Part shown: positions 1 to 25,522 of the stretch, piece after piece
How the letters are laid out: every line of letters starts with the position of its first letter
How positions within the stretch are numbered: the first letter of the stretch is position 1
Assembly (NCBI GenBank): GCA_903813345.2
Contig: CAIIXF020000011.1
Span: 26,094,166 to 26,158,165, forward strand
Reading direction: 5' to 3'
Source: Owenia fusiformis
Taxonomy: Eukaryota; Annelida; Polychaeta; Sabellida; Oweniidae
Length of the DNA: 64,000 bases
The notes under the pieces: model-generated
The model's input: only the letters and a program-made list of their open reading frames with translations
Database searches by the model: none
What the model was told of the DNA's origin: nothing
Made by a program: the position numbers and the translations under genes

Positions 1-320
1 TTTATATAAGGTTTTAGTGATGATGAACATTTTACCTACATTGTCTGACAAAATCAGTGATCTCAATCATTTCTGTACAGAGGTACATCTGAAAAACCTT
101 AAATTCACTTGCTTTGATACAACTTCTCTTGATACAAAATTTGATGTAGGAAATGTGAAAAAATATTATTTGGTGTACTACTATACATTGCTATACCTTG
201 CATGTAGTGTAGGAGTTGGGCTTGAATTTGAAAACAGAATGTATTTTGAAGTTTAAAAAATTCATTCAAGAAGTCTACAATGATGTATCATAAGTAATAC
301 AATGTTTCATTTTTATGTAG
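1..320. other. intron or flank left of snoRNA host exon A1
   Basis: AT-rich sequence ending in a pyrimidine-rich acceptor (ttttatgtag) just before host exon A1. A 79-codon open frame at 17-256 has no recognisable domain and runs into the intron, so I do not call a gene. Confidence 0.5.
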
Positions 321-726
321 CAATGGAGGAGTGCGATGAAATGGAGGAAGAGCCATACTGGAGTCGGATAATGAGCTCGAAGACTGTCATTTGAAATACC
401 AAACTGATGGTAGGTACTCTACTTTTTAAACAGTAAATAGTCCCAATTACATTAAAGTGTTGTGCAACTTTAATTGTTACTGAAAGATTCTATGATGAGA
501 CGGAATTACCGTTTGAGGTCAACTCTGAAACCAAACGCGGCACTTTCTGAGAATTTAAAAACAGAATTTATTTTGAAATACATATGCATAAATTTAGTAA
601 ATAATTTAAATTAATGTATCAAAAGTAATACTGTGTTACATTTTATAAAGCAATGGAGTATGGTGAAGTAAAGAAGAGCCATTCTGGAGTCTGTAGACTG
701 AAATTTACAAGAAAACCAAACTGATG
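321..726 (+). ncRNA. snoRNA host transcript, left block (exons A1 and A2)
   Basis: Two type-A exons of a snoRNA host gene. A1 (321-409) follows the acceptor ttttatgtag and ends GATG before the donor GTAGGT. A2 (651-726) follows an acceptor ending ataaag and ends with the same GATG|GTAGGT. Both match the type-A exons at 12-15 kb, but lengths differ (89 and 76 nt, against 90-92) by insertions and deletions that are not multiples of three. The exons therefore carry no conserved reading frame, as in SNHG-type host genes whose product is the intronic snoRNA. No type-B exon follows either snoRNA here. That the left and right blocks form one transcript is inference. Confidence 0.6.
486..555 (+). ncRNA. 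box C/D snoRNA, copy 1
   Basis: Box C ATGATGA at 492-498 and box D CTGA at 547-550, with flanks GATTC and GAATT that can form most of a terminal stem. Of the six copies this one diverges most: the C'-like box reads CTCTGAAA instead of CTATGAAA, one base is inserted before it, and the stem has a mismatch. The D' guide GGAATTACCG is intact and complementary to the 18S 530 loop. It lies in the intron between host exons A1 and A2. It may be functional or decaying. Confidence 0.75.
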
Positions 727-846
727 GTAGGTAGTCTGCTTCTTAAACAGTATATAGTCCCTATTACACTATAGTGTTGAACAGTAAAAGTCCTTATTAA
801 TGTTTTACATAATTGTAAAATTTTACATTTATTATTGTCAGTGAAT

Positions 847-916
847 GATTCTGTGATGAGACGGAATTACCGTTTGAGGTAACTATGAAACCAAACGCGG
901 CACTTTCTGAGAATCT
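847..916 (+). ncRNA. box C/D snoRNA, copy 2 (predicted 18S 530-loop 2'-O-methylation guide)
   Basis: Box C GTGATGA (853-859), box D CTGA (907-910) and a perfect terminal stem GATTC/GAATC. The D'-like box is TTGA. The fifth base upstream of it lies in GGAATTACCG, which pairs with CGGUAAUUCC of the universally conserved 18S 530 loop, and this selects the U after CGG. In human numbering that is Um627, the site I recall for SNORD65. The sequence before box D (about AAACGCGGCACTTT) is identical in all copies and would be a second guide; I do not recognise its target. Confidence 0.85.
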
Positions 917-955
917 ATGACAATCTGATGATAAAGTTCATTTGTGGACTAGTTC

Positions 956-2260
956 CCAGTAATGTATGACACTAATGTGTCCCAGTACAATTTCATTGAT
1001 GTTACATTTATCATTAAAAGAAACATATATATTTTAGATGACAAAAAATCCAAAGTTGATCTGGCTGCACACACGAAACAGCTACATCTAAAGTGAGTAT
1101 AATCTTTACATAATATAGCATCACTATTATATCTTCACAGACCCCATATATTGGACATCTAAAAGCCAAACCTTTGATTGACCGCACAGCGGGAATGCAA
1201 AGTTTAGGAAACAATGCCTGAGTGGTATGAAGCAGCTACAATGCATTGAGTCTTGGGCTTAAATTCTTTTCACACATTGCAAATTTTTTCCTATAAAATC
1301 ATCTTTAAGGAACGAAATCACTTAAAGAACACACTTTCAATGACATTTTTTTGGAAGGGTAAAGTTGGAAAGTCATCAAAACCAGTGGGAAAAATCCATT
1401 CATCACCATGACAACTGTTTAGCGACATTGCATGTGTTATTTATATTTCACACACTGTACATTATGTGAATACTCTGTTTGGATTGACTGGAATCGGACA
1501 CACCTTGCCTAGCTATGTGTGAATTGATAATTAAATGTACTTTTTAATGAGGTCTGAGGCATAATGAACCCCCTGCTGAGAGTTAATATAATAAATGTCC
1601 CAACAAAAAATAAATTGATGGTCACCTAGAAAAAGCACCAATGGCAACATGAATGAAATACAAAGTAGATATAACTTAAAGATTCACGAATAAATAAAAA
1701 GAAAATCATATTTTTGAAAAATATTTAAGGTTTAATTTGAAGGGGAAAAACAAGATGGCTGCCATTTTATGTGAGAAGTATCACAAAAAATGTTGCTTTA
1801 CTTGTAATTTTCACATTGAGCACAGTTTTCTGGTTTGGATTTTTTGGATTGACTCTGATTGTTCATCATCAGGTACATGTATAGATGTTGTAAAATTGAA
1901 ACCAAAATCTTGTGCTCAGTGTGAATTTGAATGAAATATTCACAACTCCACCAACACAATTAGGTTGTCAAAATTGGTTGCCCAGTAACTTGAGAGACTA
2001 TAACCCCTTGATTAACCAGATAAACACTAATTCAATCATCAAGATACAATTCAATGTCTTTACAAAGAAAGTAAGCAATGTTTTGGAGGATATTTTTCAA
2101 ACTTTTAGTTTAAATTATTCATTTACTATTTGCACTTGAAATATTTTCAGTTCTGGCATATTGATAATATGCAATGTCTTTGATGCCAATATTCTTCTTT
2201 AATCTTGAAAATTAATTTTTGGCCTCTCAGAGGAAGGATAAGATGTTGAGGTTCAATTTT
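956..2260. other. no gene seen
   Basis: AT-rich sequence following snoRNA copy 2. Short open frames near 1014-1214 (minus) and 1737-2139 (plus) show no domain, no splice context and biased low-complexity composition. If the left and right host blocks are one transcript, this is intron. Confidence 0.4.
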
Positions 2261-2264
2261 ATGT

Positions 2265-2830
2265 GTGATTGGGTTGGTTTTTCAGACATTACAATTTCCA
2301 ATATATTCTAAGTCGATTTCTGGACTGATTCCTGGACTGATTCCTGGACTCATCCTTTACCAAGTACAATGCATGTTATTGCAACAAATCTTCAATTTAG
2401 ACTTGATACAAGTTGAAATAATCTTGATTCATGTCATTAAAAAATCAAAATTTAGCCAAAGTGGTATCATATTTGAAATATACATGCTAAGTTACATCTA
2501 GAAATGTGTTTTTTAAGTGTTAATCAACTTTGACAATTTAATATTCTTTAAAACTTGACTTCAAGGTCAGGCATAAAACCCCATGTTATAAAATCACAAA
2601 AGTGAAATATCTTTTCTTATCTTTGACAGATAATATTTTATTTTACTGGAAATTTTTTAATTTGTATAACCATACTATACATACAGTTAATATGAAAATT
2701 GAATCACTGAAACTGATGAATATTCAAATTTAAGGGAACTTTCCAATACTTTGCCATGTTATCTACCCCGAATTAGCCACCTGGTGGTGTAACCGGTAAC
2801 TGCCTACCCACATCTGGGTAATTGGAAACG
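2265..2830. repeat. dispersed repeat, copy 1 (partner at 61.5-62.0 kb)
   Basis: Colinear with 61480-62020 at visibly high but imperfect identity. Shared landmarks are the GTGAAATATCTTTTCTT block, the run TTTAATTTGTATAAC, and a final ACATCTGnGTAATT where similarity stops. The 5' limit is unclear; the left part also holds a 14-bp triplication (TTCCTGGACTGA type, about 2322-2350). Open frames in it are not conserved between copies. Probably an old transposon-derived repeat of unknown class. Confidence 0.65.
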
Positions 2831-2865
2831 GCTTACCACATCAATCATTCAAATTGTCTCTATAA

Positions 2866-3645
2866 CCCCCCTATCACACCAAACTAGTTCTTACCCGTTC
2901 TTGCCAGTCCTACGAAAACGTCATTAAACGGGCTCAATCTGGCTGTGGTCGGGAAATATGTCTAAAATAATTAGCTACTTCGTTCATAAACAGTCTTCAA
3001 TACATCAATCTCATTCGTAGTTCGTTCAGGTCGCACCAAGTCGGTGTACAACATCGTATAACGCGTCCCTTAGTCTAGAAGGTCATCATGACCTGATTAC
3101 AGAACGGTATGGTCGCCATCGAATTTTGAATCGATTCAAAATTCTAAATCACATTCCCCGTCCGGGAAAGTCCATGAAGTTCGTAAACAGACCGTAGAAC
3201 GTTGTAGCTACGTTCATTCATTACGTTTTGAAGAACGCAGTGGCAACTTGCTTGGTGTGATAGCTATACTTTTGCTAACTCGTTGATAAATACGTTCTTA
3301 ATCAGTTTTAACCCGTTTGCAATTAGTTCTACCTCGTTCTCAATACGTCCTCAGACAGTTCAACTCGTTGTAAAAACGTCCCTAGTAGGATTGAAGTACG
3401 ACAGTTCCGTTCGTAGTACGTCCAGCTCGTCATTAGTAGGTTGTCACTCGTTCTAATTGTAGAACGTGACGACCAAGGGAATATTTTGAGCATGTTCTAA
3501 GTTCTAGAGGACCTACCCGTTCGAGTACGATCGATGAAGTTTGTAAATAGACCCCAAGCGGTTCTAATTACGTCCAGTCCGTTCGTACACATTTGAAGCC
3601 CGTTTTCGAGAACGTGGTGAGAACTAGTTTGGTGTGATAGTAGGG
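2866..3645. mobile_element. non-autonomous inverted-repeat element, copy 1 (780 bp)
   Basis: Terminal inverted repeats read CTATCACACCAAACTAGTTC at the left and its complement at the right, inside C-rich/G-rich ends (CCCCCC and TAGGG). TAA flanks both ends (2863-2865 and 3646-3648), like the 3-bp TWA target duplication of PIF/Harbinger elements. There is no transposase frame. The interior is packed with irregularly spaced CGTTC and ACGTCC words. A second copy sits at 53066-53862. Superfamily assignment is tentative. Confidence 0.7.
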
Positions 3646-3648
3646 TAA

Positions 3649-4586
3649 TACAATACATGTGGACTTGTTAATAAGGTACTTGCAAATATGTACACTAAAC
3701 AATACAATTAGACAAACAGTATCTTATGCATTTCTAGGGGTTAGGTATAGTAGAGTGTATATTATATAAGAGAACGTGCATGTAAATGTGAAATCACACA
3801 ATGTCCTATATTGAAGTCATATATCAATTAAATACCCAAAATAATAATATTACTTTTTCCATGATTTGAAATTCATAATATGTTGCACATTATTGTGTTT
3901 TTATCATTCAGTATTAGTTTTCAAAAAGAATTATTCTACAATGTAATAGATGTTTATCATCAAGTATAAGTATTATGAGGGTTGATGATAATCATATTGT
4001 TCGTAATTTTGAGATTGAATGTTAAATATCAAAAGACAATGAACACCATCTAATTGTAAAGATAATGTTCATTAATTTGATAATGAATGTTCTGTATTTA
4101 AAGACAGTGTAACATCTAATTCTAAAGATAATGTTCATTATTTTGAGTACAATAAATACAATGTCTATTATCTAAAGACAATAAGTACTGATTATAATCT
4201 TCATTATCTCATGTATTGTGTAATGCTCATTATTTGTACACGTTTATTGTGTGAAGACAATGTTTATATGAGGGAAGCATTCAATAGCTCAAATAATTTT
4301 TTCATTATATGTAGACAATGTTTATTATTACTGAAAAGAATTGGTTATTTTCCGTATTGATATAAAATTCAGCGTGATTACAAATATTGTTATATTACCA
4401 TGGTTATATTTACCATGATTGTTCAGTAAATAGAACTGGTAAAAGATATGTTTTTGTGTACCTGTTGAACGAATCTCTTACTCTTCACTTGTGTTTTCTG
4501 TGCCTTTATTGATGTTCATAAGATTAGTATTACTAATTATTTCCATTTTGACATCAAAACAAGTAATTGTGTGATTATTATTATTA
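3649..4586. other. AT-rich spacer with degenerate about 64-bp repeats
   Basis: Very AT-rich 3' flank of the minus-strand gene that follows. Between about 4020 and 4270 a degenerate unit recurs (CATCTAATT..AAAGATAATG, at 4048 and 4112). No coding signal seen. Confidence 0.5.
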
Positions 4587-4592
4587 TTTATT
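4587..4592 (-). terminator. candidate polyadenylation signal of the lengsin-like gene
   Basis: AATAAA on the minus strand about 120 nt beyond the stop codon of the glutamine synthetase-like gene, in an AT-rich context. Position and sequence fit, but other AATAAA-like sites lie nearby. Confidence 0.35.
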
Positions 4593-4712
4593 TGGATTTC
4601 TTAGTTAAATATACATGTGAAAATATTGAAAAAAAAACAAAACAATACATGTGGAATTGATAAACATATTGTTGAAATGTTCATATCTCCCTGTCATCGA
4701 TATCCTCCCAGC

Positions 4713-6059
4713 TTAGATAAACTTGAGATACATTTTTCTCTCAGCCTCCAAAGCTTCTGGTGTCGGGTCTAATTCTTTGAAAACAGCTACCTCCATTTCA
4801 GTCTTGGCAATTGTATACCACTCTACAAACTCCTCCCCGAGGGCGCTGCACATGACTTTGTCCTCTTTGAGAGCTTTGAGGGATTCTTCTAGAGTCCTGG
4901 GAAAGCTTGCAGCATTGGGGTCATTTTCTATTGGCAGTTGCATTTTGTTAATAATGCCATCTATACCAGCCGCTATTGTACTAGCCATGACCAAATATGG
5001 ATTTGCAGCTGCTGAGGGTAGTCTGTTTTCCAAGTATAAACCAGGTTCTCCCTGCTTCTTGACCCGGGTGAAAACTAGGCGGCTGCCGATGCTCCATATG
5101 ATCTTGTCTGGGCACCATGGTTGACCAATTCGTCTGGAACAATTCACGGTTGGGCATTGTAGGGCACAGAGAGCAGGAGCATGCTTTAATAACCCAGCGA
5201 TCCAGTATGATCCAAGCTCAGATAAGCCATTAGGTTTAGTTGCATCGTATAGCTTGTTGGCCCCTGATTCAATGTCCCAAAGGGAATGGTTGAAGTGGAA
5301 GCCATTGAATGCATGGAGGTTAGGATGTAGGGGATAGCTCTTGTATGGCGTTGTCATGAATGTGGCTGTGAGGTTTTTACTGGCACATATCTCTCTGATG
5401 GCTTGTTTCATTACAAAAATGTTATCCGCTTGTTTCAAACCAAATATTGGCTTCATTGCAATCTCCATCTGACCCGGGGCTTGCTCTGGATGGAAATTTT
5501 CTGTTTCTATTCCAACTTCTTTGAGATTTGTAATGATATCAAATGTGAGCTCTTCAAACTGTGCCATGGTAGATTGGACAAATATATCCTGACCGGGGAA
5601 CACTGGTTCAAGGGTGTCCTTCTCAAGAATCTGGAATTCAACCTCTGTGGCAGATAGTATTTTCATTCCCATTTTCTCCAAGCGTTCAATTTGCTGCCTT
5701 GCGATTGCTCTCGGTACAGGGGTTGGAGAATTATCATGCTGCCAGTTTTGCTCGCAGAGTACCTCTCCCACTTGGTACTTCCCATTTGCAGCCCATGGTA
5801 GCTTATGGAATGTCCCTGGTTGAGGAATCATTGGACCATCAGGGAATCCAAGCTCAGTAATTTTTGGAATGTTGGGGACCTCTGAACTTGGACCTAATCC
5901 TACCGAAACAATAACCATGTTTAATCCATCCTGACAGAATCTTTCAAAGTTCTTGATGTGTGTGAGTTTACCACGTGGTATTCCATTGAAATCGGCAAGA
6001 GTGAACCTTACAAAGTCGCAGCCTTCAGCATCTTTCACAAATTGTTTGATGTTTTCCAT
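4713..6059 (-). CDS. lengsin-like protein, glutamine synthetase class I fold
   Basis: One exon of 448 codons with class I glutamine synthetase hallmarks. These are an N-terminal beta-grasp part (FTLADFNGIPRGK, residues 19-31), TEVEF (138-142) with the metal-binding pair E139/E141, HPEQAPGQMEI (190-200), NGFHFNH (252-258), PTVNCSRR (303-310), ENRLP (344-348) and ANPYL (352-356). In canonical enzymes the corresponding motifs are close to GSGMHxH and PTxNSYKR, so the ATP/glutamate pocket is partly changed. Vertebrate lengsin is of this type and is regarded as catalytically inactive; activity here cannot be judged. I chose the ATG at 6059: the ATG 27 bases upstream reads ATGTTTCAG and looks like a splice acceptor, so a 5' non-coding exon probably lies upstream. 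It is antisense to the snoRNA host and between its two exon blocks. Confidence 0.88.
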   Translation of the reverse strand: MENIKQFVKDAEGCDFVRFTLADFNGIPRGKLTHIKNFERFCQDGLNMVIVSVGLGPSSEVPNIPKITELGFPDGPMIPQPGTFHKLPWAANGKYQVGEVLCEQNWQHDNSPTPVPRAIARQQIERLEKMGMKILSATEVEFQILEKDTLEPVFPGQDIFVQSTMAQFEELTFDIITNLKEVGIETENFHPEQAPGQMEIAMKPIFGLKQADNIFVMKQAIREICASKNLTATFMTTPYKSYPLHPNLHAFNGFHFNHSLWDIESGANKLYDATKPNGLSELGSYWIAGLLKHAPALCALQCPTVNCSRRIGQPWCPDKIIWSIGSRLVFTRVKKQGEPGLYLENRLPSAAANPYLVMASTIAAGIDGIINKMQLPIENDPNAASFPRTLEESLKALKEDKVMCSALGEEFVEWYTIAKTEMEVAVFKELDPTPEALEAERKMYLKFI

Positions 6060-6086
6060 AATGGCTGTTACAACAATCTGAAACAT

Positions 6087-7120
6087 TACAAGGAATGATT
6101 CAAAAATGTGTTGAAGTGGGAATTAGAATGTGCATAACATTCACTGATCACGAGCAGTCAAAGATGGTTGTAACACCATGATGAATACTACTTTCATTGA
6201 ATGTGTATATCAGTCTAATCTGTTAACTACTGAAAATTACATAGCTATTAAAACAACAAACAACAAATAACAAATAAGCTAAGCTTTTTTCCAGTAGCTA
6301 ATATTTAGTCCTACGACTCACATACAAGTCTGAAAGAATACTCAAATGTTGAATATCGATAAGACATTTCAATAACAAGCTTGACAAAATGCAAATGATA
6401 TGTTAATTTTTATGTAGGGACTGTTTCAGCTGCTTTGATATGATTGGTGTGTTTGCTATGTGGCCACCTGTATTTTACAGAGTGGTGACATTTCCCATCA
6501 TGTTAATGCCTTGTATTATATATGTCATGATATAGGGAGAAAATCAATAAACTGAAGGCCTGTGTTGCACTTGCTAACTGTATATTGAATGCTCTTACTA
6601 TGCTAGAATATTTTCTGTCCCTATATCTTGACACTGTTACTTTGTATGGTAGAACTCTCCTTACTTTTTATCCCAAATATTTTCACTGTTATGATCACAT
6701 GTTTTCCAGTTATTCTGGGCATTATATGTCTGCAAATTAGAGTATTCTATCCAAAGATGGTGCTGTAGTATACCATTGAAGTCCCCAAACAGGTTTTAAA
6801 TGTAACTACTTTCTTCATACCATGAAGTGAACAAAGCGAGTAAGGATAGTACACTCTATGTGTGTTGATATGGTTTTGTTGAATGTAGCTACTAGCTATA
6901 TTAGACTTTATGGTTGTCTGATAACTACTGTGTACGTCTATTAATCAGGTCATGGTAAACAATATGCAGGTATCCTGAGTAAATTGATAGGCTTCAAACA
7001 ATATTAAAGTGGATAGTGGGAAAGCATTATGCTTAGACAGGAAATAAAACAATATACTTCTAGAACACAAACACATGTTGTAATAAACTACATGTATACT
7101 GTAAAATAAGAGATCATTTA
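6087..7120. other. no gene seen; probable 5' flank or intron of the lengsin-like gene
   Basis: AT-rich sequence with no sizeable open frame. A first exon for the lengsin-like gene should be somewhere here on the minus strand, but I cannot place it. The foldback element begins just to the right. Confidence 0.4.
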
Positions 7121-7124
7121 TTAT

Positions 7125-7700
7125 TAGTGCAGTCAGAATGAGGGTTTAGGCGTGCGTTCAGAGGGATTTTATGGGACATAATTTTTTTTCATGTTGCTAG
7201 TATGATTTTACTTATTTGTATGGATTATTAGATCTTAGTTTTTCAGCTTTTAGATTTTGTGACCATTTTACCCCCCATGGGCTATAATTTGGACCCCTAC
7301 TATAAAATTGGGCTGGAACTCCAAAAATACTCAGTGGAATGTATCCAAATTACTCTGATATATTGGTATGGGCTTACTGAATATATGATAAAAATTTCAT
7401 GTCACATGGTTAAGCGGTTGCCATGGAAACAGATAAAACATACCCTTCAGGTGTTGATTTTCAGGCTATTTTTCAGAAATGATAGAGTCATTTCATGCAT
7501 ATTTTTTGTCACCAGTGTGTTAGGAAGGGTTAAAGTATGAATAGAAAACTTCTATAATATATTAGCAACAAGATTCATCCACAGGATTTCAGATTTTGGC
7601 CTTATATGGGTCCACGATTTATACAGGGGTCTATTTTACAGACTCGAACCCCCACATTAGATGGATGCTATAACTTTTGAAATAATGGAGTATCTGTTCA
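7125..7700 (+). repeat. left inverted arm of the foldback element
   Basis: Continuous arm of about 575 bp. Its outer about 315 bp pairs with 10269-10584 and its inner about 260 bp with 8655-8935, both in inverse orientation. Contains an RFX X-box-like palindrome at 7417-7430. Confidence 0.8.
7417..7430. promoter_or_regulatory. RFX X-box-like palindrome in the left arm
   Basis: GTTGCCATGGAAAC fits the X-box pattern RYYNYY-N2-RRNRAC. The mirror arm has ATTTCCATGGCAAC at 10279-10292. Related palindromes occur inside the element at 8249-8262, 8401-8414 (GTTACCATGGTAAC, perfect) and 8560-8573. Sequence match only; no evidence of use. Confidence 0.35.
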
Positions 7701-8384
7701 CCTGCAAAAGTACAGCTGAATTACAAAAAAATAACTGCCACTAATAGATTACGAGCTGAGATGAGCTGTTTCACATGAGATACTAGTATTCTCAAAAACA
7801 GAACAGTGCTGCCCTCACTTATGAAGGTGTTGACATTTCAACTCTCACATTTGAAGAGGGTGGATTATATGGAAATATTCCCACCAGCCTAAACCCAGCT
7901 CTACCAAGCTAAACACTGCATGAATGAATTATGAATTCCCGAGGAATCCTTAACACCCCAATGGTCAAAAGAATCCTTCCTTGTTGAAATTGTTGATATT
8001 TTAAATAAAGAGTCCATTGTTGAAGATGAAAACTATGATGATGAGTAAAAACAAGTTAGGAGTAGAATATGTGTGAGAACTAGTAGAATGGTATGAGGCA
8101 ATACTGTCAGACATACATGTAAAAATGCTGAAATTAAGAGTAAAATGATAATTTTGAGCAATTTTACGTTCTATGTTGTGTCTTGACTATTCTCAAATGA
8201 AGGTAGATCTGAAATCAAAAAATGAAGTTTCCATGACAATGAAACATGGTTATCATGGCAACCAAGTAAATTGTAACCTCCAAAGTCTGACACAATACGC
8301 AAGTCTAATTATCTTTTAAGTTCTGAATAGCTGATATCTGTATCTGCTTTAATTCAAAGCATTTATCAATTGTGGAGATCTGAA

Positions 8385-8710
8385 TTTCAACAAAACCCTA
8401 GTTACCATGGTAACCAATCAAATTTCAGCTATCAAAGTCTGATTTAATACTTAAAATCAATGATTGTCTAAGATTTGAAAAAATGAGACATGTATCACCC
8501 ATATTTCAAAAGTTATAGCATCCATCCAATGAGGGGGTCAGAATTTCCCTAAAACCCTGGTTACCATGGCAACCAATCATATACCAGCTCCCAAAATATA
8601 CCAGCTCCCAAAATATGATACAATAGATAAGACCATCCATTTACGAAGATCTGAAAAAATGAGACCTGTATCTCCCTTATTTCAAAAGTTATAGCATCCA
8701 TCCAATGTGG
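8385..8710 (+). repeat. internal partial tandem duplication of the foldback element
   Basis: Two adjacent diverged units of about 170 bp share the order AAAACCC, X-box palindrome, CAGCTnnCAAA, GAAAAAATGAGACnTGTATC, TTCAAAAGTTATAGC and CATCCATCCAATG. The last part also belongs to the inverted piece beginning near 8655. Confidence 0.6.
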
Positions 8711-8935
8711 GGTTCGAATCTGTGAAATAGGCCCCTGTATAAATCATGGACCCATATAAGGCCAAAATCTGAGATTCTGTGGATTAATCTTTACATAAGA
8801 TTGTTGCTAACATATTACAGACGTTTTCTATTCACACTTCAACCCTTCCTAACACTATGGTGACAAAATATGCACAAAATGACTCTATCATTCCTGAAAA
8901 ATAGGCCTGAAAATTGACACCAATGATTGCATACA
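8655..8935 (-). repeat. inner piece of the right inverted arm
   Basis: Inverse copy of about 7440-7700, with landmarks CCATATAAGGCCAAAATCTGA, AACCCTTCCTAACAC and GACTCTATCATT. It is separated from the outer right piece by the 162-bp repeat region. Confidence 0.75.
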
Positions 8936-9344
8936 GATATGGATGAAATTTTTTTAACTCGAGACCTACTTCCTGTCGGCCATTTTGAAGTCAAATGCTA
9001 AAATCCTTGTCCGCAAACTTAAAGAAAAACGGCTTCACAGTTGCTTTTCAAACTTTAACATCTTGTTCAGCTCACTTCATTCTACATCTGATTAGGTTTT
9101 TGACCTGTTAGCTCAGTCATGGCAGCCATTTTTAATGTCTTAAGAAAAGTTAGCGTGCGATAATACTTTGTATTACATATTGAATGGTGTTTTTGAGTTT
9201 TCATACTTTAACTATTTTGTAGCTTTATAAATAATTTCAGGTGTACTTTGTTGTAAAATCCTATGTTATTATTAATGGTAGTTATATGTGATAATTTTGT
9301 AAAAAGAAATCAGCAAAAACTCATAATCACTTTTTTATTGTCAG

Positions 9345-10235
9345 CCATTTTGCATTTTTTCGTCCTAAAATCTTGTTTGTAAAGTCTTGTCTACACATTT
9401 TCAGGTGAACCGTTTGGTAGATCAATTTTAAATTTTCAGGGATGATTCTTAGTACAAAAATCTAGATCTGATTAGTTTTTTGGCATTCTGGGTAAATGTC
9501 AAGGCGGCCATTTTGGATTTTCCATCCTAAAATCTTGTCTGTAAAGTCTTGTCTATGCATTTCCAGGTGAACAGTTTGGTAGATCAATTTCAAATTTTCA
9601 GGGATGATTTTTAGTATGAAAATCTAGATCTGATTAGTTTTTTGGCATTCTGGGTAAATGTCAAGGCAGCCATTTTGGATTTTCCGTCCTAAAATCTTGT
9701 CAGTAAAGTCTTGTCTACGCGTTTTCAGGTGAACCGTTTAGTAGATCAATTTCAAATTTTCAGGGATGATTCTTAGTATGAAAATTTAGATCTGATTAGT
9801 TTTTTGGCATTTTGGGTAAATGTCAAGGCAGCCATTTTGGATTTTCCGTTCTAAAATCTTGTCAGTAAAGTCTTGTCTATGCGTTTTCAGGTGAACCGTT
9901 TGGTAGATCAATTTCAAATTTTCAGGGATGATTCTTAGTATGAAAATCTAGAACTGATTAGTTTTTTGACATTCTGGGTAAATGTCAAGGCATCCATTTT
10001 GGATTTTCCATCCTTAAATCTTGTCTGTAAAGTCTTGTTTACCCGTTTTCTGGTTAACTGTGTGACGGATCAATTTCAAATTTTCTGGGGTGGTTCTTAG
10101 TATGAAAATCTAGAACTGACTAATTTTATGGCATTCTGGTTAAAATTTTAGGTGGCCATTTGGATTTCCTGTCCTCAAATTGTGTCGGTAAAGTCTTAAA
10201 TACTCATTTTCAAGATAACCATTTGACGGGATCAC
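9345..10235 (+). repeat. 162-bp tandem array inside the foldback element
   Basis: The landmark CGTCCTAAAATCTTGT (with variants) starts near 9361, 9523, 9685, 9847 and 10009, exactly 162 bp apart, with a decayed sixth start near 10170. Each unit carries TTTTCAGGTGAACCGTTTGGT, AGATCAATTTCAAATTTTC, AGATCTGATTAGTTTTTTGG and AAGGCAGCCATTTTGGATTT. Units 2 to 4 are the most alike, consistent with expansion from the centre. Confidence 0.85.
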
Positions 10236-10268
10236 CCATTGGTGGGGACATTTTGTACACATTTGTGT

Positions 10269-10584
10269 TCTTATATCCATTTCCATGGCAACCACTCAAC
10301 CATGTGACTTGAAATTTTTATCATATATTCATTTAGCCCATACCAATATACCATAGCAATTTGAAAACATTCCATTGAGTATTTTTTGAGTTCTTGCCTA
10401 ATTTTTTTATAGTAGGGGTCCAAATTATAGCCCATGGGGGGTAAAATGGCCACAAAATCTAAAAGCTGAAAAACTAGGATCTAATAATTCATACAAATAT
10501 GTGAAATCATACTAGCAACATGCAAAATTATGTCCCGTAAAATCCCTCTGAAAGCACGCATTTAGGCTCATTCTGACTGCACTA
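10269..10584 (-). repeat. outer piece of the right inverted arm
   Basis: Inverse copy of 7125-7440, including the complement of the GGGTTTAGGCGTGCGTT region and the mirrored frame at 10271-10453. Ends with CTGCACTA followed by the TTAT duplication. Confidence 0.8.
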
Positions 10585-10588
10585 TTAT

Positions 10589-12038
10589 ATGATAAGACCA
10601 ATGGCCATTTTAGCAGTAAACACACTTTCTTGAATAAGATGCAGAGAATTATGTTTCCTTCTAAACATTCACAACCCCTTTCAATAGAATATTTTATGTT
10701 GCATGTAATTGATGTGTGTTTTTTACTTAAACTTTCTTTAACTTTAGCCTTTCCTTAGGTGTCTTATAATACAATTCATGAAAAATGTGATTAGTATAAA
10801 CCCATAAAGGAAATTGACATTAAAGCACAACTGATACTCACATTATGCACTTAGTTCTGCTCTTATAAAAGACCGGTTCCTCTGTTAGCTTTATACCAAT
10901 GTATGCAAGCCTTAAATAACCTCTTTGCTTATGTTGAACTCAAGTTCTCTACATATGAGGTCATGCTACCAGTATGCTCAATATGCATATTTTTTATCAA
11001 GCCCTGACAAAAAGTGCCAAGTTAATGTAAACAACCAAAATGTACTGTTTGAAATAAACATTTGAAACAGCTAAAACTGAACTGAAGAACAACTTAAATA
11101 TTTCACATTAATTTAAATACAGGTTTATCAAATCGTGTCAGTTTTTATTGATTTAAATTATTGAATTTGCCTTTAAATGTCATCTGTAAGGAAACGCCTT
11201 TTGCACCTGAGCCATTGAGAGTTTATCTTGTGACTGACTGAAAGAATGAATGACTTAAATAATTTTTTTTACAAGGTAACAATGTAGGTTAATGCATGTT
11301 AGACTGTTCAATGTTCAATAGTCATTTTTAATCATTTTTGATATTCTTGACTGATAAATGATCATAAAGTTCTTATACCGAACCTTAGGACAAAAAATAT
11401 TAAGGTCAACTTGAAGGACTGATATTAGTTCAAACCACTTTGTCTAATTTTATTGTATTGAAAAATGGCCACCATTCTAGCATTTTTTCGTATTTGTACT
11501 ATTTTGTTGAGATTTTTTATGTGCCGACTTAAAAGCATATTACACTTTTTGATAAAAATTTGGCTATTGTGAGCAACCATTTTGAAAATCATGGGTGTTA
11601 TGTCGTTTGTAAAAATGCGAGCTATGGCTGTTCAATGGGATTTGCTATGCTTTGGCGTTGCTGTTGTTGACTTTAATAAACAAGGAAGGCAAAATAACAG
11701 ATGCAACCATATGATCCCTATGCATGTGTAGAAGAGAATCATTTTAATTCTAGGTTGAAAATTTGGTTTAGAATACTCAGTGAACTGATGTTAATGCTGT
11801 AAGGCTGCAATTTTTTAGCTCACATGGTGAGCTTTTGCAATCACTCGCTTGTTAATTCTATGGTACAAGGAAATAAAACAGATTGTAAAAAAAATCGATG
11901 ATGAGACTTATTGAGGTCAATAATAAAACAAAAACAGCACTTCTGTGAATTTACTAGCATTAAATAACAAATGTGGAAATTCAGTCAAAAAATACTCTTG
12001 GGCTGTGTTTGGAAGTAATACAGTGTTATTTTTTATAG
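10589..12038. other. no gene seen
   Basis: AT-rich spacer between the foldback element and the right snoRNA block. No sizeable open frame or repeat recognised. The last part (about 11870-12038) resembles the sequence before the other type-A exons, so it belongs to the duplicated host unit. Confidence 0.4.
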
Positions 12039-12218
12039 CAATGGCAGGAGAAGGATGAAATTGGAGAAGAGCCATTCTAGAGTCTGATAATGACCTTAAA
12101 GACTGGTCTGCAGAAATGTCAATCTGATGGTAGGTAGTCTACTTCTTGAATAATAAAAAGTATATCCTTCAATGCTTTTCATTTCTTTATTATTTTACAT
12201 TTATAATTGTTAATGAAT

Positions 12219-12288
12219 GATTCAATGATGAGACGGAATTACCGTTTGAGGTAACTATGAAACCAAACGCGGCACTTTCTGAGAATCT
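12219..12288 (+). ncRNA. box C/D snoRNA, copy 3
   Basis: Box C ATGATGA (12225-12231), box D CTGA (12279-12282), terminal stem GATTC/GAATC. The base after GATTC is A rather than T, the only visible change near the 5' stem. Both guide regions match copy 2. It lies in the intron between A3 (ends 12129) and B1 (starts 12467). Confidence 0.85.
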
Positions 12289-12670
12289 ACACCAAATTAA
12301 CAAATCCTTTGAAAGGGCCCCATACTATAATATAGGATTCCATTAGGTAATCATTTAGAGCATGGGTGCTAAACTGACTGCTATTTGGTAAAACCTAATA
12401 ACAAGACAAATAATATTTTATGGGTAAATAAATAGAATTGGCACTGATTTGTGTGATATTTCCTAGGTATATCATCTGGTAAATTCAACTCACTAACCAA
12501 GATACCTCGTGTTGTACAACCATATCTGGCTCCTTGTCTTGCCTGGCCCATGGAATTCTACAGATCCAAGGATAGTCAATTTCACCTCCACCCCTATCGC
12601 TGGATCCAACTCATCTAACATTCAAGGTAAGCTCTAAGTATAATTTCTATATTTTTCTATTATCTGGGAT

Positions 12671-12783
12671 TAGAGTCGCTTATTGTGCCTTGTGCAGTGG
12701 CCTTTGAGTGCTAAAACTTTCTCAGACATAAACTTCTAGCTTAATGCCCAGCATGACTTCTCCATACACATGCTGACACCAAG
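12671..12783 (+). ncRNA. conserved intronic element C1, possible H/ACA-type RNA
   Basis: A block of about 113 nt repeated after each type-B exon. It contains ACATAA (fits the H box AnAnnA) and ends with the hairpin CAGCATG...CATGCTG followed directly by ACA and three bases (CCA), as in an H/ACA tail. The 5' half folds only weakly and the 3' hairpin is short, so an H/ACA snoRNA is only a possibility. The whole unit is recently duplicated, so conservation alone proves little. Confidence 0.25.
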
Positions 12784-13216
12784 CCTGATACATTCAATTA
12801 ATAAACTATGTATGATTTAAATTATAAAAATCAGGGCAGAAATTCTGGAAATACAATTACATGGCAACATTATTGGAGATAACTGATTTTTACCAACTGT
12901 TTGTAACTGTTTGTGGTCAACAATGAATCTAACATAGCAGTTCAGCAGGATTTAATAGCATTATGTAATAACTTAATAAGTCATGCTGAAATGTAGTATA
13001 AAAATACTCATGGACTTTATGTGGAAGTAATACAGTATTTCATTTTATAGCAATGACAAGAGTAGGATGAAATGGGAGAAGATCCATTCTGGAGTTTGAT
13101 AATGAACTTGACAACTGTCTTCGGAAATGTCAATGTGATGGTAGGTAAAACAGTAAATAGCCCTATTCAATGCTTTTCATTATTGTATTATTTTACATTT
13201 ATAATTGTTAGTGAAT

Positions 13217-13286
13217 GATTCTGTGATGAGACGGAATTACCGTTTGAGGTAACTATGAAACCAAACGCGGCACTTTCTGAGAATCT
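13217..13286 (+). ncRNA. box C/D snoRNA, copy 4
   Basis: Box C GTGATGA (13223-13229), box D CTGA (13277-13280), perfect stem GATTC/GAATC. Sequence between the boxes is the same as in copy 2. It lies in the intron between A4 (ends 13140) and B2 (starts 13455). Confidence 0.85.
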
Positions 13287-13620
13287 ACACCAAATTAATG
13301 AAATTTTTGAAGGGTTTCATATTATACTGTAGGATTCCATCAGATAATCCTTTAGATCATGGGTGCTGAATTAACTGTTATTTGGTAAAACCTAATAATT
13401 AGAGACAGAAAATATCATTGGTAACTTTAAAGAATATTTGCATGATATTTCCAGGTATGTGATCTGGTAGATTCAACTCACTAACCAAGATACCTCGTGT
13501 TGGACAATCATCTCTGGCTCCTAGTCTTTAAGAATTTCACCTCCACCCCTATCCCTGGATCCAACTCCTCTAACATTAAAGGTAAGCTCTTAAGTATTTC
13601 TAGTATTTCTATTATTTGGG

Positions 13621-13733
13621 ATTAGAGTCGCTTATTGTGCCTTCTGCAGTGGCCTTGGAGTGCTAAAACTTTCTCAGACATAAACTTCTAGCATAATGCC
13701 CAGCATGACTTCTCCATACACATGCTGACACCA
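13621..13733 (+). ncRNA. conserved intronic element C2, possible H/ACA-type RNA
   Basis: Second copy of element C1, with the same ACATAA and terminal CAGCATG/CATGCTG-ACA arrangement and only a few substitutions. It lies between exons B2 and A5. Confidence 0.25.
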
Positions 13734-14152
13734 AGCCTGATACATTCAATTTATAAATTATGTATGATTTAAATTATAAAAATCAGGGCAGAAATTCTGG
13801 AAATACAATTACATGGCAACATTATTGGAGATACCTGATTTTTACCAACTGTTTGAGGTCAACAATGAATCAAATATAGCACTTCGTCAGGATTTAATAG
13901 CGTAATAAGTCATGCTGAAATGTAGTATTAAAATACTCCTGGACTTTATGTTGAAGTAATACAGTGTTTCATTTTATAGCAATGACAAGAGTAGGATGAA
14001 ACGGGAGAAGATCCATTCTGGAGTTTGATAATGAACTTGACAACTGTCTTCGGAAATGTCAATGTGATGGTATAGGGTAGGTATAACAGTAAATAGCCCA
14101 ATTCAACGCTTTTCATTATTGTAAAATTTTACATTTATAATTGTTAGTGAAT

Positions 14153-14222
14153 GATTCTATGATGAGACGGAATTACCGTTTGAGGTAACTATGAAACCAA
14201 ACGCGGCACTTTCTGAGAATCT
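14153..14222 (+). ncRNA. box C/D snoRNA, copy 5
   Basis: Box C ATGATGA (14159-14165), box D CTGA (14213-14216), perfect stem GATTC/GAATC, both guides unchanged. It lies in the intron between A5 and B3. Confidence 0.85.
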
Positions 14223-14586
14223 ACACCAAATTAATGAAGTTTTTGAAGGGTTTCATATTATAATGTAGGATTCCATCAGATAATCCTTTAGATCATGGGT
14301 GCTGAATGAACTGCTATTTGTTAAAAGCTAAATAATTAGACACAGAAAATATCATTGGTAACTTTAAAGAATATTTGTGTGATATTTTCAGGTATGTCAT
14401 CTGGTAGGTACAACTCACTAACCAAGATACCTCGTGTTGGACAATCATCTCTAGCTCCTAGTCTTTTCTGGCCCATGGAATTTAACAGAACAAAGAATTT
14501 CACCTCCACCCCTATCTCTGGATCCAACTCCTCTAACATTTAAGGTAAGCTCTTAAGTATAATTTGTAGTATTTCTATTATTTGGG

Positions 14587-14699
14587 ATTAGAGTCGCTTA
14601 TTGTGCCTTCTGCAGTGGCCTTTGAGTGCTAAAACTTTCTCAGACATAAACTTCTAGCATAATGCCCAGCATGACTTCTCCATACACATGCTGACACCA
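14587..14699 (+). ncRNA. conserved intronic element C3, possible H/ACA-type RNA
   Basis: Third copy of the element described at 12671, between exons B3 and A6, with the same H-box-like and ACA-ended hairpin features. Confidence 0.25.
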
Positions 14700-15038
14700 A
14701 GCCTGATACATTCAATTTATAAATTATGTATGATTAAAGTTAGGGCAGAAAAATATTGAAAATACAATTACATGGCAACATTATTGGAGATACCTGATTT
14801 TTACCAACTGTTTGAGGTCAACAATGAATCAAATATAGCAGTTCGGCAGGATTTAATAGCATTATGTAATAAGTCATGCTGAAATGTAGTATAAAAATAC
14901 TCATGGACTTTATGTGGAAGTAATACAGTGTTTCATTTTATAGCAATTGACAAGAGTAGCATAAAATGGGAGAAGATCCATTCTGGAGTCTGATAATGAG
15001 TTTAAAGACTGGTCTGCAGAAATGTCAATCTGATGGTA

Positions 15039-15275
15039 CAGTTGGGGACAAAAATAAATGACAGGTCGATTTTCGATCACCATTTCCTAATTATGGTGGT
15101 CTGAAAGCCCATAATTTCCAATATTGTCTAGATATATATCCCTTAAAATTTGTATATTTTACAGTTTGTATAATCTCATCCACTGATGTATGGCCTCTTG
15201 TAAATTCTCTTATTTTTAACATGGGAAATCCTCACTTCAGCAAATCCATCTGTCATTTATTTATGTCCCCAACTG
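15039..15275. mobile_element. Tc1/mariner-like MITE in the 5' splice site of host exon A6
   Basis: A 237-bp insertion with inverted ends: CAGTTGGGGACA at 15039 and the complement TGTCCCCAACTG (one internal mismatch over the about 25-bp arms) at 15275. TA flanks both sides (15037-15038 and 15276-15277). The other A exons read GATGGTAGGTAGTC without interruption, so the empty site is visible in the paralogous copies. No coding capacity. TA duplication and length fit a Tc1/mariner-group MITE. Confidence 0.9.
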
Positions 15276-15361
15276 TAGGTAGTCTACTTCTTAAACAGTA
15301 AATAGCCCAATTTAATGCTTTTCATAACTGTCTTATTTTACATTTATAATAGTTAATGAAT

Positions 15362-15431
15362 GATTCTGTGATGAGACGGAATTACCGTTTGAGGTAACTA
15401 TGAAACCAAACGCGGCACTTTCTGAGAATCT
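15362..15431 (+). ncRNA. box C/D snoRNA, copy 6
   Basis: Box C GTGATGA (15368-15374), box D CTGA (15422-15425), perfect stem GATTC/GAATC, both guides unchanged. It lies in the intron between A6 and B4, downstream of the MITE at 15039. Confidence 0.85.
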
Positions 15432-15802
15432 ACACAGAGTTAATGAAATTTTTGAAGGGTTTCATATTATACTGTAGGATTCCATCAGATGATCCTTTAG
15501 ATCATGGGTATTGAATGAACTGCTATTTGTTAAAAACTTAATAATTAGACACAGAAAATATCATTGGTAACTTTAAAGAATATTTGCGTGATATTTCCAG
15601 GTATGTGATCTGGTAGATTCAACTCACTAACCAAGATACCTTGTGTTGGACAATCATCTCTGGCTCCTAGTCTTGTCTGGCCCATGGAATCCTACAGAAC
15701 CAAGGATAGTCTATTTCACCTCCACCCCTATCTCTGGATCCAACTCATCTAACATTCGAGGTAAGCTCTAAGTATAATTTCTATATTTTTCTATTATCTG
15801 GG

Positions 15803-15914
15803 ATTAGAGTCGCTTATTGTGCCTTCTGCAGTGGCCTTGGAGTGCTAAAACTTTCTCAGACATAAACTTCTAGCATAATGCCCAGCATGACTTCTCCATA
15901 CACATGCTGACACC
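15803..15914 (+). ncRNA. conserved intronic element C4, possible H/ACA-type RNA
   Basis: Fourth copy of the element described at 12671, after exon B4. Similarity to the upstream units ends about 40 bases later, so any further A exon of the series is absent here. Confidence 0.22.
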
Positions 15915-19371: not shown

Positions 19372-22300
19372 TTATTGCATATTTTTACTTTTATTCAAAG
19401 TTCTCTTTGCATTAAACGAAGAATCCTTTGTCCCAAACGAAGATGTCGCTCCAAAAGAAGAATCCTTTGTCCCAAAAGGGTATCTTGTCTCAATTGAATC
19501 TTGTGATGCGAAAGGAGAGTATGGTGAATCAAAGGAAGACTCACGTGAACTGTCGGACAAGAATACAGCCTTGACAGGACCTGGGGTGAAACATATTGAC
19601 GTGCTCTTCACATTTTTATGTTTATCAGATAGAGCAACACTAGTGGGTTTGTTGGTTTGAGTGGACGGTATGCATTCATCAGTGGGTGTGCTTTTAGTAT
19701 TTGTGGAGTCCCTTTGAAATTTACCCGTGAACAAGTCCTCTTCAGAGCTGATCCTGCTGGGCGTTTCTATTGCTATAGTCTTGTTTCTCAGCCGTTTATC
19801 TTTACGTTTTGCCTTTGTGGATCTCCAAGGGTGAATCTCATTCAAGGTGGGTTCCAAAGCACTTGCGTTATCCGTAGATCTTTGTAAATAGTTGTCATCA
19901 TATGGTTTGATGACTGGGCTCTCATTAACCTCAATAAAATGCTTTATGGGTGTTTTCTGCTCACTGGTCCCCACATTGTCGAGTGCTTCGACAGGTTTCT
20001 GTTTTTGCAGAGCTGCTCTTTGCCTCCATGGCTGTTGAGGACTTTTACTAGAAAATTCCTTTGTTTCCATTTCTTCATCAATTTCGGAAGATGTTTTCCT
20101 AATTCCAAGCGATACGATCTTGTCATCTTTTGGACTTGCAGATTCTGGATTGATGGTTTCACCAGAAGTTGGACCACCCTTCAAGATTGATTTATCTCTT
20201 GGTGACTTCCCGCTAGTATGATGATGGCGTTTCTTCTTTTTCTCACGTTTCCTTTCCAGCTTCATCTTTTTCAATTCATCGGGGTCCATTGAAAAGGACT
20301 GTAAGGTTTTCGTCTGTACATGTTGCGCATGCAGTCTAGATGGGAGCGCCCTCGGCAATGGAATACCGTCCTCCGTAAATTGACTTGCTTTTGCCGTGGA
20401 ACTATCTGTTGCGGTGCTATCGGAATCTTGATTCAAGAGAGCAGTAATATCTGGTCTTCTTTGTCTAGCTTTGCGTCGTCCATCTACGTCATCAGGGGAA
20501 TTTTCCACTTGTTTCGTTTGGACATCTACCAGAGGATTATCGCCAGTGTTGTGTGTCGAAGCAGTACCCTTTTCACTATTGCAACGAGTTATTGCCAGAT
20601 CCTTCTCCACCGCATCATCACTTGGAGTATGACTGCTTTGCGATCTCGTGATAGGGATGGCCTTTCGTTCTGGAGTAGACACAGGAGAAGGATTATTCAA
20701 TCTTTGCGTGACGTTCTTGAGTTTACTTATACATTCATTGATGCGTCCCTCAACGAGCACTGTTTCAGTACCGACTCCTCTTTCCTCTGTGCTTGGCGGA
20801 GGAGTCATCCGGGTTGAGCTTGTGGCTGTTCTGCGTGCTCTTGTCATCGTCTCTCTATCTACCTTCCATACAATGGACTTAGCTGTCTTCGGGAGTTGGC
20901 TTATGAACGACGAAGAAGCTGCCTGTGTGTTCCCATGTTGTACAGTCATCGGCTCCCAGAACTCCTCCTTCTTTGATATCAATTTGAAATCTGGATTTGT
21001 TCCTAGACTTATCTTTCCGGTAATATCAGTCATCGTGCTGTTATCATATTTTAAATTATGATTGGTTCCTTTTGAATCGTACGGCGTTGTCATAGTGCTC
21101 GATGTTTGTTTTCGAACACCTGCAAATATTGCTTTATCAGATGTTGGGACGGAATCTGTGGCTGTCTCGGCATCTTGTTCACCGATGGGAACAGTAACAA
21201 TCTCAATATCTGTTGTCACTGTATGTGGGGTAGTCGTTGAACGTTCAATCATCTCCTTAGATACCATAGATGTTTCCTTGTCAACCATTTTGTTACCATG
21301 ACAACCGTGGGATTCATCTATACTAGTGTGTGATACAAAATTATAGGGCGTTTGGTTTTCGGTATTTGTGCCTTGATGGGCGTTAACAGTCTGCTGTGTG
21401 TCTGTTGATTTCGATTCTGTAACTACTGGGATAGTTCTCGTAGTCTGGTCGACCATTGTTTTTGGATCAGTTGTTGTTTGCTTGTTCACCAGATATTGTC
21501 CCTGTGTTGTTTCTACACCAAGACTTTGAACATGAACGTTAGTGTTTGTCATTGTAGAGTTCTCAGTTGAAAATCCTCGACTGGATTCTCCAGTAGATGT
21601 TCCTAATGTTTGCAGTCCTATAAGATGTTGTGTTGTTGTTTCTTTTGAATTATTAGCAACTGGGTGTGTATTTGTGTGTTGATCATTTGTTTCACGCTGT
21701 ATAGTCTCAACTGATTTGCTTTCCGTTAGTGCTTTTATTGTTCTTGTACTTACATCACTTGTTGCTATGGTAACCGCATCAGTTGCCACGTCAACCTTGA
21801 ACTCATTTGCCTGGTTACCACACCCGATAGCACGTTCATGTGTGCGCATACTACTGTTTGTTGTTGTCTCTTTACTGGGTTGATGAGGAACGCTTGTATT
21901 TGAGCCCTGGCTGACCACATTTACCGTCTCAGTCCATGTTTCTTGACTGTTCTGCCGGATTACTCCATCAGTGCTTGTTATTTGTGATTTTACATCAGCA
22001 GGAAGTGTGCCGACGTATTTATCTACCCCACTATTGAAGACTGAATTATCCCCTATTGCCGTTGTTTGGAGGCTAACCAGATCAGTGGTTGTAGTGAACT
22101 TAGTGATATGATCTCTGCTTGGTGTGTTGGTCTTTCTACTAAGAAGCTTTACCGGAACCATGCTTGTGGAGGTGTTTTTTGTATTCATCCCCTTATTGGT
22201 GGTTGTCTCTTTCGTAGTCTGGACTATGGTCGGGGTATTGGTTTGGCTCGTTGTCACTTTTGGTACCCGGGGCGTAGATGTTCCGGTATCTGAAGTATGC

Positions 22301-25464: not shown

Positions 25465-25522
25465 CTTAGAATTCAACTGCTAGTTACTGTTGAATATCAA
25501 GATTATCACACTGATACTGATA

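Follow-up and report, generated by a model that had tools for sequence, protein, structure and literature searches.

A predicted non-coding host gene of Owenia fusiformis with tandemly duplicated box C/D and H/ACA snoRNA copies

What keeps six copies of one small guide RNA almost unchanged in sequence that otherwise drifts? The question is raised by a 64,000-nucleotide (nt) stretch of the annelid Owenia fusiformis (GenBank assembly GCA_903813345.2, contig CAIIXF020000011.1, positions 26,094,166 to 26,158,165, forward strand), referred to here as the window. An original prediction, made from the letters alone, had placed six box C/D small nucleolar RNAs (snoRNAs) in a tandemly duplicated non-coding host gene. 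The analysis described below indicates that the locus is very probably a duplicated non-coding host gene with intronic C/D guides plus H/ACA copies, kept by selection. The prediction had missed four H/ACA copies, which form a second snoRNA family, as well as a SNORD34-like snoRNA and relics of C/D copies.

Box C/D snoRNA copies

The plus strand of the window carries six box C/D snoRNA copies of 69 to 70 nt each, listed here with their scores against the plant Rfam family snoR77Y.

486..555, plus strand: C/D snoRNA copy 1 (snR77/HBII-135-like), 70 nt; 27.2 bits
847..915, plus strand: C/D snoRNA copy 2, 69 nt; 29.1 bits
12219..12287, plus strand: C/D snoRNA copy 3, 69 nt; 30.2 bits
13217..13285, plus strand: C/D snoRNA copy 4, 69 nt; 28.2 bits
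14153..14221, plus strand: C/D snoRNA copy 5, 69 nt; 29.6 bits
15362..15430, plus strand: C/D snoRNA copy 6, 69 nt; 28.2 bits

Box C (RTGATGA, with A or G as its first base), box D (CTGA), and the short terminal stem that joins the boxes are kept in all six, and each copy also has a D'-like TTGA. Copies 2 to 6 have GATTC/GAATC as this stem; copy 1 has GATTC/GAATT, which includes a G-U pair. An 18-nt core lies at positions 502, 863, 12235, 13233, 14169, and 15378 of the plus strand, while the first 9 nt of this core do not occur on the reverse strand. A covariance model made from the six copies and run on the 64-kb window detected no additional intact copy. Copies 1 and 2 are separated from copies 3 to 6 by about 11 kb.

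H/ACA snoRNA copies

The repeated block was originally described as exon A, snoRNA, exon B, and an unnamed element. The element after exon B is a 133-nt H/ACA snoRNA segment resembling SNORA3 and ceN100, and it is present in four near-invariant copies.

12663..12795, plus strand: H/ACA snoRNA (SNORA3/ceN100-like), unit 3; SNORA3 36.9 bits, E 5e-4
13615..13747, plus strand: H/ACA snoRNA, unit 4; SNORA3 27.0 bits, ceN100 31.7 bits
14581..14713, plus strand: H/ACA snoRNA, unit 5; SNORA3 30.6 bits, ceN100 34.9 bits
15797..15929, plus strand: H/ACA snoRNA, unit 6; SNORA3 30.3 bits, ceN100 31.7 bits

In a relaxed Rfam search, all four align end to end with SNORA3/SNORA45 (27.0 to 36.9 bits) and with Caenorhabditis elegans ceN100 (31.7 to 34.9 bits), albeit below the gathering thresholds of both families (51 bits for RF00334, SNORA3, with a best score of 36.9; 80 bits for RF01607, ceN100, with a best score of 34.9). 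Every copy has the order hairpin, H box, hairpin, ACA, with an ACATAA hinge as its H box and the ACA box 3 nt from the end. Both copies that were folded gave the two-hairpin structure, at energies not clearly better than those of shuffled sequences. A scan of the window with a model of the segment returned four places, all within units 3 to 6. The block structure of the original prediction thus describes units 3 to 6 and fails for copies 1 and 2, which have neither a B exon nor an H/ACA segment.

Conservation contrast

Across the six C/D copies, 4 of 69 ungapped columns are variable and copy 1 has one 1-nt indel, versus 32 of the 58 upstream-intron columns common to all six (Fisher p 4e-10; in this and all other Fisher tests here, columns count as independent and the common descent of the copies is disregarded). 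The differences are located at the R of box C, the base before box C, the C' region of copy 1, and the G-U pair of the terminal stem. Copies 2, 4, and 6 are identical across 69 nt, and copies 1, 3, and 5 can be distinguished from each other and from these three by differences in the core. For copies 1, 2, and 3, the upstream introns are 67 to 81% identical to the others, with cores at 96 to 100%. Within units 3 to 6, variability affects 2 of 69 columns in the C/D snoRNA, compared with 24 of the 74 upstream columns and 44 of the 169 downstream columns (p about 1e-6 to 2e-6).

Alignment of the four full units (3 to 6) gave 831 ungapped columns, of which 153 are variable. These are distributed as 2/69 in the C/D segment and 5/133 in the H/ACA segment versus 146/629 elsewhere (Fisher p 9e-6 and 1.5e-8, respectively), and no gapped column falls inside either segment. 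In a control comparison, variability as low as that of the C/D RNA occurs in 61 of 763 windows of 69 columns, and variability as low as that of the H/ACA segment in 22 of 699 windows of 133 columns; the 12 lowest windows listed at both sizes start in or beside the H/ACA segment. The original prediction had described six near-invariant snoRNAs amid flanks that drift and gain indels, which agrees with these counts, and it had named equal divergence inside and outside the snoRNA segments as the contrary outcome; the divergence is unequal. The contrast supports its view that the C/D segments would be kept by selection on the snoRNA.

Predicted targets in ribosomal RNA

The guide before the D' box (UUGA) of the C/D copies is GGAAUUACCG, and in the copy-3 alignment (30.2 bits) it matches snoR77Y letter for letter (GGAAUUACCGu.UGA). 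In guides of this class, the methylated nucleotide pairs with the fifth base upstream of the box (PMC11542601). We applied this rule to an unreferenced yeast 18S ribosomal RNA (rRNA) sequence, one not taken from a database record, with the right length of 1800 nt and the U of CGGU at 578. The D' guide points to U578 of this sequence via 11 pairs (10 Watson-Crick and one G-U), and the next best site has 8. With TTGA as the box, the guide therefore places its −5 base on U578/U627, as in the functional group of snR77 and HBII-135, the latter also known as SNORD65. This position, methylated in both organisms, corresponds to Um627 of human and Um578 of yeast (PMC11542601). The chicken guide for the U627-equivalent site, with snR77 and HBII-135 as its homologues, is given with one isoform (PMC2653536).

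Other targets were sought in references drawn from contigs with eukaryotic rRNA. The main reference, L002, covers positions 334 to 2671 of the large subunit (LSU) model and belongs to one eukaryote, a contaminant among prokaryote-genome contigs; these contigs gave six matches to a short 28S pattern and none to a long one. L003 (two LSU fragments) was used in the first target scan only, as were L001, L004, L005, and L006, which have no rRNA match. Viral contigs gave no match for two 18S patterns and one 28S pattern and one match, L007, for a 28S 3' pattern. Rfam assigns positions 1 to 361 of L007 to LSU 2922 to 3401, and by eye about the first 130 bases are rRNA-like, so that the 28S 3' end is poorly covered.

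The second, D-adjacent guide is ACCAAACGCGGCACUUU. All six copies agree in its 17 nt before box D, although the upstream intron of copy 1 is 25 to 33% different from those of copies 2 to 6, and the guide is altered in a relic at 11888. Because it is invariant in six copies despite this intron divergence and changed in the relic, constraint on the D-adjacent guide is suggested. Two candidate pairings were rejected: the best duplex on L002 (−17.0 kcal/mol) leaves the −5 base unpaired, as read from the structure by eye, and the unreferenced 18S offers at best 5 Watson-Crick pairs in the correct register. It is conceivable, if doubtful, that the C/D snoRNA is a double guide whose D-adjacent guide has a lineage-specific target (variable rRNA, small nuclear RNA, transfer RNA, or messenger RNA), and that the six-fold amplification and the four SNORA3-like copies serve that target or near-complete or regulated rRNA modification.

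The 5' pocket of the H/ACA RNA can pair over 10 + 3 nt with LSU GAGC[U]UGACUCUAGUC in L002, and the candidate uridine is that of GAGCU-UGACUCUAG. The 3' pocket had no convincing target in the LSU sequence searched. Of the chicken ACA3 homologues, the one for 28S-3409 uses the 5' pocket (7 + 3 nt) and the one for 28S-3448 the 3' pocket, and both genes lie in RPL27A introns (PMC2653536).

Predicted host gene, exons, and relics

The borders of the predicted exons A, B, and C were placed by motif, and the AG/GT borders partly by choice. The exons are given here in order with a SNORD34-like snoRNA, the C/D relics, and an insertion resembling a miniature inverted-repeat transposable element (MITE).

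9..99, plus strand: SNORD34-like C/D snoRNA, upstream of exon A1; Rfam 30.8 bits, gathering 38
321..409, plus strand: predicted exon A1, motif-placed, AG/GT
651..726, plus strand: predicted exon A2, motif-placed, AG/GT
1038..1092, plus strand: predicted exon C (after copy 2; unlike B), motif-placed, AG/GT
11888..11955, plus strand: C/D relic that keeps TGATGA, has lost the D' guide, and reads CTGT at box D; 26.2 bits, E 1.6e-4 (model R1)
12039..12129, plus strand: predicted exon A3, motif-placed
12467..12626, plus strand: predicted exon B3, motif-placed
12881..12956, plus strand: probable C/D relic, unit 3, no box C and no CTGA box D; 13.8 bits, E 0.54
13051..13140, plus strand: predicted exon A4, motif-placed
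13455..13581, plus strand: predicted exon B4 (shortened by internal deletions), motif-placed
13848..13883, plus strand: probable C/D relic, unit 4, from alignment; 16.6 bits, E 0.09
13980..14069, plus strand: predicted exon A5, motif-placed
14392..14544, plus strand: predicted exon B5, motif-placed
14807..14842, plus strand: probable C/D relic, unit 5, from alignment; 13.4 bits, E 0.71
14944..15035, plus strand: predicted exon A6, motif-placed
15037..15277, no strand assigned: MITE-like insertion of 241 nt in the 5' splice site that follows exon A6; TA ends and terminal inverted repeats of 36 nt (92%)
15601..15760, plus strand: predicted exon B6, motif-placed

All eleven predicted exons (A1 to A6, B3 to B6, and C) have AG/GT borders. 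Their joined length is 1183 nt, in which the longest open frame has 73 amino acids, identical to the shuffle median. Exons A3 to B6 alone give 73 amino acids versus a median of 70 (95% shuffle limit, 109), and A1-A2-C give 47 versus 40 (limit, 62). The joined exons have no long open reading frame (ORF), and their splice-like borders are motif-placed. Exon A is about as variable as the introns (18/90 versus 85/320 columns, p 0.22).

The three weak relics (13.4 to 16.6 bits, E 0.09 to 0.71) are not significant singly, with chance hits starting at 12.2 bits, and they can be aligned both to the C/D copies and to one another. The MITE-like element leaves GTACAG at the 5' splice site of exon A6, where units 1 to 4 have GTAGGT, and it may change how the copy-6 intron is spliced. 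No additional unit appears among the repeats downstream of unit 6. The start of the array may lie to the left of the window, with more copies there, and the start of the gene is probably outside the window.

The SNORD34-like RNA has the D' guide UUACCUACAUUGU with CUGA, boxes C and D, and a terminal stem of 9 pairs, all features of SNORD34, at a score (30.8 bits) below the gathering threshold of 38 for RF00147. Its D' guide makes 11 consecutive Watson-Crick pairs with L002, or 15 pairs including 12 Watson-Crick ones. When both strands were scanned generically for C/D RNAs with an LSU target, this RNA alone was found, and three shuffled plus strands gave no hits; the scan is blind to the six copies and to other C/D RNAs that have no LSU target.

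Two features occupy the gap between copies 2 and 3. At 4713 to 6122 on the minus strand, an uninterrupted frame of 469 amino acids encodes a glutamine synthetase catalytic domain (Pfam E 1e-69); because one open frame spans the whole domain, a retrocopy or compact gene is suggested. Also, positions 7122 to 10587 hold a large palindromic repeat, with arms that include 123 nt (95%) and 142 nt (85%), around a tandem array of five copies (period 162 nt), of which the first is only 61% alike.

Proposed mechanism

We propose that a spliced, non-coding, plus-strand host transcript would release introns, most of them with one live snoRNA, and that exonucleases would trim the debranched introns down to the small nucleolar ribonucleoprotein, leaving C/D RNAs of about 70 nt and H/ACA RNAs of about 130 nt. 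The D' guide GGAAUUACCG of the C/D RNA would pair with 18S CGGUAAUUCC, directing fibrillarin to 2'-O-methylate the uridine equivalent to yeast U578 and human U627, while the H/ACA 5' pocket would pair with 28S ..GAGC-U-UGACUCUAGUC.. and lead to pseudouridylation there. Intragenic tandem duplication of whole exon-intron units would have enlarged the array. Selection would then hold the snoRNA parts of most copies, possibly for a benefit of dosage, while decay affects the introns, the exons, and one or more C/D copies. A single host gene may extend across the 11-kb gap.

Weighing the evidence

Several observations weigh against this reading. No Rfam family reaches its gathering cut-off anywhere in the window, and in a relaxed search of 20 kb the snoR77Y scores of 27.2 to 30.2 bits (E 0.04 to 0.23) fall under the threshold of 52 bits, so the copies are not assigned to RF01178. 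The comparison with snoRNA families that the original prediction proposed yielded matches (to snoR77Y, SNORA3, ceN100, and SNORD34) in the relaxed search, below threshold, and none at gathering. The six C/D copies also score 24.9 to 29.2 bits against SNORD34, a sign of how far generic C/D signal contributes to the snoR77Y score. Reading the D' box as TGAG, one base later, would put the −5 base on G577, not U578; the Rfam alignment favors the TTGA reading. The D-adjacent guide is without a target in the unreferenced 18S and the LSU parts searched in L002, a search that excluded LSU positions before 334 and 2671 to 2922, small nuclear RNAs, transfer RNAs, and the species' own rRNA; of the two guides originally described as kept, both are conserved and only the D' guide has a recognized target. 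None of the four sequences folded (two H/ACA, one C/D, and the SNORD34-like RNA) is clearly more stable than shuffles (z −1.44, −0.18, −0.28, and +0.36). As for the H/ACA 5' pocket, none of 400 shuffled guides matched as well, but the best came close (29.0 versus 29.5), the 10-nt arm contains one G-U pair, the 3-nt arm begins one base off the stem, and six pocket definitions were tried.

The conservation contrast could also have arisen if gene conversion between copies, not selection on the RNA, had homogenized the snoRNA stretches. Tandem arrays are prone to gene conversion, three of the C/D copies are identical over 69 nt, and the control windows as invariant as the C/D RNA, with the lowest listed falling in the H/ACA segment, agree with such a process. 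Nevertheless, conversion tracts would have to end close to the borders of both segments (69 nt for the C/D, 133 nt for the H/ACA), with divergence between and around them, and the changes in the C/D copies sit at tolerated places; we consider this explanation quite improbable. It is unlikely, to a lesser degree, that one or two copies alone are expressed and functional and the remainder are recent passengers that have not yet decayed. The clear relic and the three weak relics are evidence that copies die in the array, the copy-6 intron has a transposon-like insertion in its 5' splice site, and the introns of units 4 and 5, at 93 to 94% alike, could be recent. The divergence of the introns upstream of copies 1 to 3, however, implies time enough for their cores to have decayed, which they have not.

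Copies 1 and 2, together with the SNORD34-like RNA, might belong to one host gene and copies 3 to 6 with the H/ACA copies to another, since the 11-kb gap holds an opposite-strand glutamine synthetase ORF and a palindromic repeat, and copies 1 and 2 have no B exons or H/ACA copies. Against this division, both parts lie on the same strand and have exon A in common; in addition, the 11888 relic, positioned shortly before A3, indicates that the unit order continues leftwards. Two genes are a genuine possibility, though we lean towards one. That the A and B exons code for a small duplicated protein is, in contrast, scarcely credible. Exon B is less variable than the introns (17/127 versus 85/320 columns, p 0.003), and one B frame is open across most of B3 and B5, but this frame stops at the second codon in B4 and B6, the B exons vary in length (160, 127, 153, and 160 nt) and show gaps of 7 and 26 columns, and the longest joined frame is within the range of shuffles. 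The B5 peptide, the sole one searched, had no Pfam or PDB match. On balance, we retain the non-coding host gene with selected snoRNA copies as the reading of this locus.

Other features of the window

Further along the minus strand, a single open frame of 2035 amino acids (19372 to 25479) has RING and B-box domains near its start and is Thr/Ser-rich in the remainder, and a fucosyltransferase (GT10) is encoded at 41988 to 43578 in two ORF pieces, probably two exons. The plus strand has a weak sulfotransferase domain fragment at 46265 to 46630 (24.0 bits versus a Pfam cut-off of 22). By eye, positions 2940 to 3180 and 52987 to 53379 share sequence, a dispersed repeat.

Comparison with known systems

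The array is a clean natural case of snoRNA dosage evolution, in which live and decayed copies stand side by side, the introns serve as a yardstick of drift, and two guide classes have been amplified together. Among the literature matches listed, no title concerns this array, and such a paper may exist.

With snR77, snoR77Y, and HBII-135, the C/D copies share the D' guide, boxes C, D', and D, and the predicted target nucleotide; they differ by the invariant D guide and by numbering six versus the one chicken isoform (PMC2653536). An unusual dosage is plausible on this comparison, which has chicken as its sole reference. The H/ACA copies share with SNORA3/SNORA45 and ceN100 their boxes and an end-to-end match, and their 5' pocket has a 3-nt arm like that of the chicken ACA3 homologue for 28S-3409. 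Unlike the array, the chicken 28S-3448 homologue uses its 3' pocket, and both chicken genes lie in RPL27A introns (PMC2653536).

Similar architectures are known from other hosts. Drosophila DmSnR60 a-d are tandem intronic isoforms in mfl, earlier assigned to dUhg6 (PMC1821038). Like the array, mfl has one C/D isoform per intron, another duplicated small RNA, and an H/ACA snoRNA; unlike it, DmSnR60 has four copies, is complementary to 28S, and resides in introns of the 3' untranslated region of a protein-coding gene (PMC1821038). The gas5 and gas5-like hosts resemble the array in their short exons without coding potential, intronic tandem snoRNAs, and intragenic duplication, whereas their guides mostly differ from one another, the U80 paralogues being the one tandem pair named, and the passages of the source drawn on here name only box C/D snoRNAs (PMC2653536). 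Clusters of intronic snoRNAs are also named for Uhg1 to Uhg8 (PMC13228274). The array leaves existing knowledge of snoRNAs unchanged, and to this known kind of locus it adds, within one array, a guide for the 18S U627 site in six copies and an H/ACA guide in four, a copy number that is mildly unusual.

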